A stretch of 20,128 nucleotides of DNA, taken from a virus. This document shows positions 12,978 through 16,498 of this stretch, piece by piece. Every line of letters begins with the position of its first letter. The stretch's first letter is position 1. A program made the position numbers and the translations under genes. The notes under the pieces are model-generated. The model searched no databases. It saw only the letters and a list, made by a program, of their open reading frames with translations, and was not told the DNA's origin. The DNA lies in IMG/VR virus record IMGVR_UViG_3300045964_000006, positions 1 through 20,128 of that record. One strand, given 5' to 3'.

Positions 12978-13259
12978 TCAGGTTGTCTTGCCCTTGCGTC
13001 TCTGAATTTCCTTCTGTTCTTCGACCCATTCCTCGTGCGCCTTTTTCTTGAGACCTTCCGCGATGCTGTGAAGCTCTGGCCGATCTTCCGCCTTGCGATC
13101 ATTCCACCACTCGATTGCTTCGGCTTCAGTTTCGGATTCGAAACCCACTGACGTTAGCCCGCATCCACAACTGACATACCAAAGTGGCACATCATCGAGT
13201 TGGAACGCAGTAAGACACTCCCCACCACACCGTGGGCAGGGTTTTAGTTGATCGCTCAT
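12978..13259 (-). CDS. Lar-like restriction alleviation zinc-ribbon protein
   Basis: A 93-residue protein. KPCPRCGGE (residues 6-14), then WYVSCGCG and, after an acidic segment, EAEAIEWWNDR match the Lar-type zinc ribbon: two Cys pairs followed by an AxxxWN-R helix. Lar of the Rac prophage reduces type I restriction, and many phages carry relatives of untested function. A charged C-terminal helix extends from about 56 to 90. The ATG at 13259 overlaps the previous stop by 4 nt (ATGA), which rules out the longer in-frame start at 13415. Confidence 0.75.
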   Translation of the reverse strand: MSDQLKPCPRCGGECLTAFQLDDVPLWYVSCGCGLTSVGFESETEAEAIEWWNDRKAEDRPELHSIAEGLKKKAHEEWVEEQKEIQRRKGKTT

Positions 13260-13438
13260 CTCACCGCCTCGATTGTCCGTATCGATCGATTCCACTTCTC
13301 GATTGCGCCGATGCGCGTTGAGCAGGTCACCATATGCCTGCACATCGCACTGGAGCATCGCGCCAGGTACATAATGCCGAGGCGCACGACTTCGACTTGC
13401 GCACCGCACTTGCACGGCACTGGCGTTGCTTCGTTCAT
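13256..13438 (-). CDS. Small zinc-ribbon protein, Lar-like
   Basis: A 60-residue protein with CKCG near the N-terminus, C-x4-C (ARCSSAMCRHM) in the middle and AIEKWNR at the end, the same plan as the next gene. The ATG at 13438 overlaps the methyltransferase stop by 4 nt (ATGA). The GGTGAGATGA junction at its start recurs at the start of the next gene, suggesting tandem duplication of Lar-type units. Antirestriction is the family's known association; activity here is not shown. Confidence 0.65.
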   Translation of the reverse strand: MNEATPVPCKCGAQVEVVRLGIMYLARCSSAMCRHMVTCSTRIGAIEKWNRSIRTIEAVR

Positions 13439-14106
13439 CTCACCTGCTCCGCGTCGAGTATGCCTTGCGCATCGCATTCCCATAGCACGCGCTGGCGCAG
13501 ACGCTCGGCGGCGATTTCGCAGTATTCTTCGTCAATGTCAATTCCCACTGCCGTTAATGCCGCATCCTTTGCCGCACGCAATGTTGTTCCGCTTCCCATG
13601 AACGGATCAAGAATAGTTTGAGCTTCAGGAAAGAATCCAATGCACCACTTGATAAGCGCGAGAGGCTTCTGTGTTGGATGCTGCGGTTCTTCCAGTTGCA
13701 GGAATCGACGATTCAGTAGAAGCCTGCGTAAAGCACCATCCCGCGATGTATAGGCCAACTCACAGTCGGAAGTGCTTAAGTCTTGTCCCTTATCCCACAC
13801 AAGCCAACCCATCGAAGGCGGGAAAATATGCGGATAGTAATTCGCGCCCCACACCACAGCATCACGCGCCTTCTCAAGACAAAGCATCAACAGCCAGTCC
13901 GATGGTGCCGCACTGTCCCATCCCTTGAACGCATAGTTTCGTCCATTGCCCTTCTTGCGCTTTGATGCTGCTGGCTTGTGTCCGTCCTTGCCGATCCCAT
14001 AGGGCGGATCAGTCAAGAGCAAATCAGCCTGTGGTAAAAACGGCAACACCTCACGGCAATCACCGTGATAGATAGTCGCGTATTCATCCTGGTAATATGG
14101 CTTCAC
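13435..14106 (-). CDS. DNA adenine-type methyltransferase (DPPY motif)
   Basis: A 223-residue SAM-dependent DNA methyltransferase of the N6/N4 beta-class. The GTG at 14106 overlaps the portal stop (GTGA) and gives a start just before VKPYYQDEYATIYHGDC, the normal N-terminus of these enzymes. DPPY (33-36) is the catalytic motif IV, HPTQKP is at 143-148, and DPFMGSGTT (167-175) is the SAM-binding motif I. The family methylates A or C in a short site; DPPY favours N6-adenine. The region between (about 45-140) is short, so target recognition is small. The C-terminal DAQGILDAE tail (212-220) repeats the portal's end and looks appended. Confidence 0.88.
   Translation of the reverse strand: MKPYYQDEYATIYHGDCREVLPFLPQADLLLTDPPYGIGKDGHKPAASKRKKGNGRNYAFKGWDSAAPSDWLLMLCLEKARDAVVWGANYYPHIFPPSMGWLVWDKGQDLSTSDCELAYTSRDGALRRLLLNRRFLQLEEPQHPTQKPLALIKWCIGFFPEAQTILDPFMGSGTTLRAAKDAALTAVGIDIDEEYCEIAAERLRQRVLWECDAQGILDAEQVR
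13448..13473 (-). repeat. Direct repeat copy B (end of methyltransferase gene)
   Basis: This 26-nt element matches 14116-14141 at 23 positions; all three differences are synonymous wobble changes. It encodes DAQGILDAE near the methyltransferase C-terminus. With copy A it brackets the methyltransferase gene. Confidence 0.75.
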
Positions 14107-15503
14107 TTGATGCTTTCTGCGTCTAGTATCCCTTGCGCATCTTCCGGCCCGAACTTTTCCCACCACCCACGCAGTTCATCATACCGATCAGCAGGCTGCA
14201 TCGCCTTCTCTTCGATCATCGCAGGCGCACTGGCAGTGACTGGCGCGAGATCATCACCACCCTCACCCTCGAATGCCTTCATTCCCATTGCCACGCGCGC
14301 TTCGTTCCGTGTAATCAATCCTGCATTCCACTTCATCACTTCCTTCTCGGCAATCTGCTTTTCATCAGCCTGAAGCGCCCACACATCGCTTGTATCAAAC
14401 TCCACCCATTCGCCATTCGCATAGGCATACTCCGGCAACAACTGATTCGTGAGCTCCGTTGCAAACAGCTTCATCGTGGGAATCACGAACGTGTTCCACG
14501 CAGCCTCGAGCGCTGTCTTGTAGTTCGAGTAGGTTGCGTGCGTGTCGAAGTTGAAACCAAGCACGAGCCCAGGTATTCCCATCACTGCACAAACTCTCTC
14601 CTCCGGCACCACGTGCGCTTCTTTCAAGGCCATCTGCTGCGGCGAGAAACCGACGTGCGCCAGCTCCATTGGCGCTGAGAACACCGCAGGCGTTCCGGCA
14701 TTTGATCCTGTGGTGGATGCCATCAATGCCGCCTTCACCCGCTCCTGGTCAATCGTGTAGACCGAATCGCTGTTCGGCTTCGGCCAGAGGAAATAGGGCG
14801 GGATGCCGCCTTTGCCGAGGACATTCTTCGAGTAGTACGTTGCGGCTTCATCGCCCAGCACTTCGTTGAGCAATGCTCTCAATGGCGACAGTCCCACGCG
14901 GTGATTTCTTGGATCCAACCCATATCGAAAGTGGATGATGTCGCTGCGCTCAACGCGATACGGCTCGCCGCTGGCCTTGACCTCGTAGTGGGAAATAAAC
15001 TCGCTGTCATCGAGCGGCCACTTGGGTTCTACGTCGCTTGAATCGAGCAGCCACAGTTCCCTCAACCGTCCCAGCTTGTCGCGTCGCTTGAGGACGTAGA
15101 CATTGCCGTAAACGAGCCAGTAATACGCAAACGCCTTGAGCATCGTCGCGCCGGAGTAATAGCCATTCGGCATCTCCCAAATGCGCTGCAGCGGATGATT
15201 GCGCACTGGCACCCACTGATCCTGCTCGCGCTTGTCTTCCCTCAGCACCCGCACGAGCGGCTCGGCAAACACCGTCCCTGCCCAGTTCACCGCGGCCATA
15301 ATCAGCGATGACTGCGTGAGATCGAGCGATGCGCCAAGCGGCACGGCATTGAGTTGCGAAGGCCAGTCAGGCCAGAACACCTGCGCGGCAACGAACTCAC
15401 GCGCTGGCCGTGGATACACGGCAATCGACGAACCGCCATAAGGCGTGAAGTCCTTTGACGGCCCTTTGCGAACGAACGATGTGACGCGCTCAAATAAATT
15501 CAT
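14103..15503 (-). CDS. HK97-type portal protein
   Basis: A 466-residue portal, the ring through which DNA enters the head. Landmarks of the family include an N-terminal strand region, SLIMAAVNWAGTVFAEPLVRV (residues about 66-86 in shortened form), the YWLVYGNVYVLKRRD segment and the C-terminal FDTSDVWALQADEKQIAEK helix, with RNEARVAMGM following. The ATG at 15503 overlaps the methyltransferase stop by 4 nt (ATGA) and AGGA lies upstream, so it is preferred to the start at 15524. The last 20 residues hold DAQGILDAE, shared with the next gene. Position after TerL is standard. Confidence 0.9.
   Translation of the reverse strand: MNLFERVTSFVRKGPSKDFTPYGGSSIAVYPRPAREFVAAQVFWPDWPSQLNAVPLGASLDLTQSSLIMAAVNWAGTVFAEPLVRVLREDKREQDQWVPVRNHPLQRIWEMPNGYYSGATMLKAFAYYWLVYGNVYVLKRRDKLGRLRELWLLDSSDVEPKWPLDDSEFISHYEVKASGEPYRVERSDIIHFRYGLDPRNHRVGLSPLRALLNEVLGDEAATYYSKNVLGKGGIPPYFLWPKPNSDSVYTIDQERVKAALMASTTGSNAGTPAVFSAPMELAHVGFSPQQMALKEAHVVPEERVCAVMGIPGLVLGFNFDTHATYSNYKTALEAAWNTFVIPTMKLFATELTNQLLPEYAYANGEWVEFDTSDVWALQADEKQIAEKEVMKWNAGLITRNEARVAMGMKAFEGEGGDDLAPVTASAPAMIEEKAMQPADRYDELRGWWEKFGPEDAQGILDAESIK
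14116..14141 (-). repeat. Direct repeat copy A (end of portal gene)
   Basis: The partner of 13448-13473, encoding DAQGILDAE at portal residues 455-463. The two copies lie 668 nt apart, about the length of the methyltransferase gene between them. Confidence 0.75.
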
Positions 15504-16498
15504 ATTGCTAATCCTATCTGGCACAGAGTGCGCTTTTCGATCATCTCTGCGTATTGCGGGTTGAGTTCGATGCCGATTGCCTTGCGCCCCATTTCGATTG
15601 CTACCTTAAGCGTTGTGCCTGAGCCTGCGAACGGATCAAGCACAGTTCCTGCAGGCGGGCATCCGGCAATGATGCAGCGCTTGACTATTTCGGCAGGCAT
15701 GACAGCAAAGTGTGCATCGGCGAAACCTTCGCCTTGTATGCGCCATACGTCGCGCCAGTTGGCTAATCCATCGCCCAATGTAGCTGCCTTGCCGGAAGCT
15801 AACCCTCGATTTTCCGAATGCTCCCACTTGTTGTTACCGCCATAACGGTAGACCGATGATGACGAAACGGCCGCAATCCACTGAGGCGACATTGCGCATC
15901 TTGCATCCTGCCAGTTGTAGAAATACTTTGCATTCTTCGTCAGCAAAAATATGTGTTCGTGTGATCGCGTTGGCCTATCGCGCACGCTTTCCGGCATTGG
16001 TGCAGGCTTAGCCCAAATGATGTCGCTTCGCAGATACCAGCCGTCAGCGCGTAAGGCGAATGCAACGAGCCATGGAATCCCAATGAGGTCTTTTGGTTTG
16101 AGCCCTTCAATCTTGTGCGAGCTGACTGGCCTTGCGAAGTTCGCGTCATATGCAGGATTCGGCACTCGAGATCCGTTCGTGATTTCGCGCTGTATACCAT
16201 TGCCGCGTTTTTGTCCTGAGTAATTACCCCACGAACCTGAATAACTGTCCCCCAGATTCAACCACAACGAGCCATCATCAACGAGCACGCGCCGCACTTC
16301 CCTAAACACTTCAACCAACCTTGCGACGTATTCATCCGGCGTCTTTTCCTGCCCGATCTGCCCATCTACGCCATAGTCACGCAAGCCGTAGTAAGGCGGG
16401 GACGTGATGCACGTGTTCACGCTTGCAGTCGGAACCTCGCGCAAGCAATCAAGCGCATCGCCGACAAGCAGGTGTAATGGCGGTGACTCTATCAGCAT
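15500..16498 (-). CDS. Site-specific DNA methyltransferase (SPPY type)
   Basis: A 332-residue SAM-dependent DNA methyltransferase of the beta class. Motif IV is SPPY (33-36), which is often seen in N4-cytosine but also in some adenine enzymes. Motif I is DPFAGSGTT (288-296), followed by GIELNPQY. The middle (about 95-255) is longer than in the second enzyme and should contain the target-recognition part. The ATG at 16498 directly abuts the TerL stop (TAGATG). Possible roles are protection from host restriction or marking DNA for packaging. No restriction enzyme gene is adjacent, although a PD-(D/E)XK nuclease is encoded upstream. Confidence 0.9.
   Translation of the reverse strand: MLIESPPLHLLVGDALDCLREVPTASVNTCITSPPYYGLRDYGVDGQIGQEKTPDEYVARLVEVFREVRRVLVDDGSLWLNLGDSYSGSWGNYSGQKRGNGIQREITNGSRVPNPAYDANFARPVSSHKIEGLKPKDLIGIPWLVAFALRADGWYLRSDIIWAKPAPMPESVRDRPTRSHEHIFLLTKNAKYFYNWQDARCAMSPQWIAAVSSSSVYRYGGNNKWEHSENRGLASGKAATLGDGLANWRDVWRIQGEGFADAHFAVMPAEIVKRCIIAGCPPAGTVLDPFAGSGTTLKVAIEMGRKAIGIELNPQYAEMIEKRTLCQIGLAI

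Follow-up and report, generated by a model that had tools for sequence, protein, structure and literature searches.

The window analysed here, a virus record of 20,128 bases, carries a head-gene operon on the minus strand. The genes follow each other in the order terminase, methyltransferase, portal, the methyltransferase of interest, a 60-aa Cys-rich ORF, a Lar-family gene, a MuF-position protein, prohead protease and capsid (Table 1). The portal start was set at MNLFERV at 15503, as aligned with the related loci L004 and L005; the mechanically called ORF begins at 15524. Overlaps of start and stop codons, GTGA on one side and ATGA on the other, leave no intergenic room around the methyltransferase. 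A GGAG motif is found eight bases upstream of the start of the Cys-rich ORF, both in the window and in L005.

Table 1. Features at the portal–methyltransferase junction of the window.
Feature	Position	Strand	Basis or remark
Portal gene	14103..15503	-	PF04860 2.5e-49; last 12 codons hold tail copy 1
Tail copy 1, DAQGILDAE, portal 3' end (GATGCGCAAGGGATACTAGACGCAGAA)	14115..14141	-	
GTGA overlap, portal stop / methyltransferase start	14103..14106	-	sequence
DNA methyltransferase, 223 aa, probable inserted cargo	13435..14106	-	PF01555 1.2e-20, phrog_67
Tail copy 2, DAQGILDAE, methyltransferase 3' end (GATGCGCAAGGCATACTCGACGCGGAG); orthologous to the L005 portal 3' end	13447..13473	-	
ATGA overlap, methyltransferase stop / Cys-rich ORF start	13435..13438	-	joins portal to Cys-rich ORF in L005
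60-aa Cys-rich (zinc-ribbon-like) ORF, probable original downstream neighbour of the portal	13256..13438	-	L005 order
Lar-family restriction-alleviation protein, more cargo between portal and MuF-position gene	12978..13259	-	PF14354 4.6e-10; phrog_599

The portal and the methyltransferase have similar C-termini, DAQGILDAESIK and DAQGILDAEQVR, respectively, and the nine-codon copies at both gene ends encode the peptide DAQGILDAE. As DNA, they form a 26-nt direct repeat (13448-13473 and 14116-14141, 23/26 identical, spacing 668), which is the best repeat within the surrounding 4 kb. The preliminary description had placed a direct repeat with a shared peptide here, and the shared tail is confirmed as a real observation. 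It had also reported three wobble differences, all synonymous. Over nine whole codons the copies are 23/27 nt identical, and all differences are indeed third-position and synonymous, yet they number four, the fourth (GAA/GAG) falling outside the 26-nt frame. No RNA structure was indicated at the two gene ends (z -0.23 and 0.18).

Short C-terminal helices are common in proteins, and a number of unrelated gene-end pairs reach 17-18/27, so that chance or convergence of helical, Asp/Glu-rich C-termini was considered as a source of the likeness. A 23/27 match, however, was reached in 0/20,000 codon shuffles of the methyltransferase tail. In a survey of 2,302 pairs of nearby gene ends from all fetched loci, matches of at least 21/27 between unrelated genes were limited to the window pair and its counterpart in L004. 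Furthermore, the copy continues into DNA orthologous to the portal end and next-gene start of L005. This comparison with L005 excludes chance, whose probability we regard as negligible. Three other gene-end pairs with at least 21/27 were rejected, two as tandem paralogues and the third as apparently spurious antisense ORFs. The pairs of L063 and L012 are tandem paralogues, those of L008 and L038 resemble spurious antisense ORFs. The tandem paralogous small genes of L063 (1181 and 1585) and L012 (1431 and 1682), which belong to other phages, have near-identical 3' ends. Two degenerate-DNA scans of 2.9 million viral contigs found the tail confined to the phage group of the window.

L005, the only close relative lacking the methyltransferase, presents the junction without this gene. 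Its portal is 83% identical to that of the window and ends in DAQGILDAEQVR, and its stop codon overlaps (ATGA) the start of the Cys-rich ORF, as the methyltransferase stop does in the window. DNA identity between the two is approximately 80% in the portal and 72% in the 150 nt before the tail, and rises to 98% from the tail onward, over the remaining 309 nt of L005. The breakpoint between the two sequences thus falls at the tail. Compared with the L005 portal end, copy 2 differs at 2/27 positions and copy 1 at 4/27, and copy 2 and L005 also share CAGGTGAGATGAACGAAGC after the tail. The earlier proposal that recombination at the 3' end of the portal gene inserted or exchanged the methyltransferase gains support from this junction without the gene and from the position of the breakpoint. 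Related portals both with and without a following methyltransferase, the comparison proposed at that time, do exist, L004 being occupied and L005 lacking the gene.

The cargo itself is predicted to be an N6/N4 DNA methyltransferase of the beta class, based on PF01555 and the motif order, with DPPYGI at residues 33-38, ahead of the target-recognition region, and the FxGxG-type DPFMGSGTT at 167-175, behind it. Its body stops near residue 208, which is also as far as its homologues match, and residues 212-223 form the portal-derived tail. At approximately 40 other loci, no methyltransferase homologue had the tail; they end near ...RLxQxVL or in unrelated extensions. Comparable scars were likewise absent at other methyltransferase loci, the best match being 16/24. 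The portals paint a different picture. Among 13 aligned portals, which share 58-88% identity with that of the window, Ala463, Leu467, Asp468 and Ala469, located in or beside the tail, are invariant. Portals of 58-67% identity, which have no methyltransferase at this place, retain the (D/E)AxxxLDA tail motif, and several of them are followed by a Cys-rich ORF. Because portals conserve the tail and methyltransferase homologues lack it, the peptide belongs to the portal, and the methyltransferase, to whose family it is foreign, acquired it. Portal relatives were not found in bacterial and archaeal genomes, and the portals of annotated phages, at most 33% identical among the matches listed, offered no informative site.

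The preliminary description had further suggested selection on the peptide itself, perhaps as a docking or degradation tag; a tag for packaging, and selection acting on both proteins, were considered here as well. Some constraint is indeed likely, since 18/81 possible single changes are synonymous, and four out of four would be unlikely without it (about 0.2%). Yet constraint on the portal copy alone, which accounts for the larger share of the differences from L005, explains most of the synonymous pattern. The methyltransferase copy of L004 (ESQGILDAE) has two amino acid replacements, and its absence from all other methyltransferase homologues examined does not favour a tag either. In the AlphaFold model of the methyltransferase, the body is mostly confident and the tail is a low-confidence appendage, the last two residue blocks having pLDDT values of 72 and 55. 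A selected tag is thus very improbable, and the tail is better described as an ordinary portal-family C-terminus. An occurrence of the tail independent of genomic context, which the preliminary description had named as evidence against its reading, was seen for the portal, in L005 and in distant portals without the methyltransferase, and not for the methyltransferase.

L004 represents a second occupied locus. Its methyltransferase is 55-57% identical to that of the window and has the same junction, LWE-x-[DE][AS]QGILDAEQVR (ATGAACGAAGC). Its tail, ESQGILDAEQVR, matches the portal end of L005 without a difference in the final 21 bases of the repeat and in the 20 bases that follow. The common junction points toward one event ancestral to both loci, after which the recognition region was exchanged or changed fast, and the data fit such a single shared event. 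Between the two methyltransferase genes (L004:1724-2425 and window 13435-14106), the DNA is approximately 84% identical at the ends and about half identical in the centre, where the target-recognition region is expected, as if this region had been exchanged or was evolving fast. L004 also has a 59-aa ORF without a family match (L004:1591-1770) between portal and methyltransferase, which the window lacks, and the insert therefore has different left boundaries in the two occupied loci.

L005 may never have had the methyltransferase, or it may be derived, a crossover between the tail copies having deleted the gene and created a hybrid portal end. Several observations speak for the second history. 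The L005 tail reads GGG like the portal copies and then CTC...GCGGAGCAGGTGAG like the methyltransferase copies, and is thus compatible with a hybrid of the two. The 98% identity downstream, as opposed to approximately 80% between the portals, indicates a recent exchange at the tail. The favoured portal tree groups L004 with L005 (support 83/87) and does not place L005 outside window and L004; it thereby permits L005 inside the group, which may then be an excision product and not the ancestral empty site. The mycobacteriophage Brujita, discussed below, has the same pattern as L005. Such a crossover could have been intramolecular, or it could have joined a portal of the L005 type to a methyltransferase tail of the window type. 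On the other hand, the portal is followed by a Cys-rich ORF without a methyltransferase also in the distant L008, L012 and L014, so that the ancestral order was probably without it. We consider a derived L005 quite possible, if somewhat short of probable. It is compatible with our main explanation, because the portal origin of the tail holds whether L005 is derived or not.

Our main explanation is that the shared peptide marks a recombination junction, at which the methyltransferase was set between two copies of the portal 3' end, and we hold this to be very probable. Originally, the portal would have been followed directly by the small Cys-rich gene through an ATGA start-stop overlap. The methyltransferase would then have been placed at this junction, bracketed by two portal 3' end copies, either (i) through illegitimate insertion with a short target duplication, or (ii) through a crossover with a partner genome carrying a methyltransferase ahead of such an end. 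The upstream copy would still close the portal, and the downstream copy would be translated in frame and extend the methyltransferase at its C-terminus, while keeping the ATGA overlap and the GGAG for the Cys-rich gene. We infer that the preservation of these two signals suffices to maintain copy 2, even if the peptide has no role. Afterwards, the repeat could serve as short homology for loss or exchange of the methyltransferase. A donor of the methyltransferase was not found. The advantage of the gene may lie in the protection of phage DNA from host restriction.

Between the portal and the MuF-position gene lies a cargo slot whose contents vary among the loci: nothing in L006 and L077, and a Cys-rich ORF in L008, L012 and L014. 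In L007 the Cys-rich ORF comes first and the methyltransferase second; in the window and L004 the methyltransferase precedes the Cys-rich ORF. Cys-rich ORFs of similar make-up directly adjoin the portal in L007, L008, L012 and L014. Among the aligned portal relatives, L004 and L007 are the only ones with a methyltransferase in this interval. The related methyltransferase of L007 (L007:4483-5208), located behind the Cys-rich ORF, suggests a second, separate entry into the slot. The family names of the cargo (methyltransferases, Lar-family) suggest that it concerns host restriction. The start regions of the Lar-family gene and the 60-aa ORF (13252-13270 and 13431-13449) have GGTGAGATGA and the ATGA overlap in common, with 84% identity over 19 nt; this likeness could come from similar ribosome-binding sites, or be an older scar of the duplicated-end kind.

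Another methyltransferase gene (15500-16498; PF01555, 3.7e-49) lies between the terminase and the portal in the window. This gene is missing from L005 and also from L003, a phage that has 99.7% identity to the window over 7.4 kb and in which the terminase end and the portal start read as those of L005. By eye, no matching scar was seen at the ends of the 15500-16498 methyltransferase.

A similar arrangement has been described in mycobacteriophages, where gene 68 of Island3 is missing from Brujita and its last 18 residues match those of the upstream gene 67 (Pope et al. 2011, PMC3029335). The authors proposed recombination between sequences of about 50 bp and did not distinguish insertion from deletion (PMC3029335). 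We fetched both genomes and recomputed the comparison: the ends of gp67 and gp68 are identical at 50/54 nt, and the single copy of Brujita (gp66) continues into the sequence downstream of gp68. In both systems, the extra gene ends in a near-identical copy of the last codons of the resident gene, and a relative has one copy on the same flanks; in the window, the tail is moreover foreign to the family of the cargo. The single Brujita copy matches one Island3 end in its upstream part and the other in its downstream part. The systems differ in that both Island3 genes are annotated as hypothetical and the Island3 and Brujita genomes are nearly identical, whereas the window has a recognisable DNA methyltransferase as cargo and a portal as resident gene, with a repeat that is shorter, at 27 nt, and copies that have diverged further. 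The window is thus a further clean, well-resolved example of an anatomy published already in 2011, and not new in kind.

Other known phenomena share part of this anatomy. Short conserved boundary sequences have been discussed as sites of homologous exchange in phage mosaicism (PMC3029335). As with these, the exchange point is formed by a short homologous gene end, or coincides with one, and both frames stay intact; unlike them, the homology in the window lies inside coding sequence and is copied from one specific gene end. Restriction-modification genes can insert with long target duplications (Nobusato et al. 2000; Furuta et al. 2010, as cited in PMC3031569 and PMC3154945). The likeness is a modification gene flanked by direct target repeats, and the differences are that the window is from a phage, its repeat has 27 nt and no endonuclease was recognised beside the methyltransferase. 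Finally, like a phage moron, the methyltransferase sits between genes that are adjacent in relatives (L005, L008, L012, L014), but it is start-stop coupled into a structural operon.

The window represents mosaicism at a gene boundary by way of a duplicated gene end. Whether duplication of the upstream 3' end is a general route for single cargo genes into tightly overlapped structural operons is a broader question, and we think this rather unlikely. If true, the copied end would supply both the overlap and the ribosome-binding site, and cargo could enter and leave with translation unbroken. Two such scars in unrelated phages, the group of the window and Island3, make their frequency worth counting. 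Annotators should bear in mind that a C-terminal peptide common to neighbouring proteins can be a trace of recombination rather than a motif with a function. At this locus, phage gene uptake has left a readable scar, of which both flanks, the unoccupied site and the source of the extra peptide are traceable.
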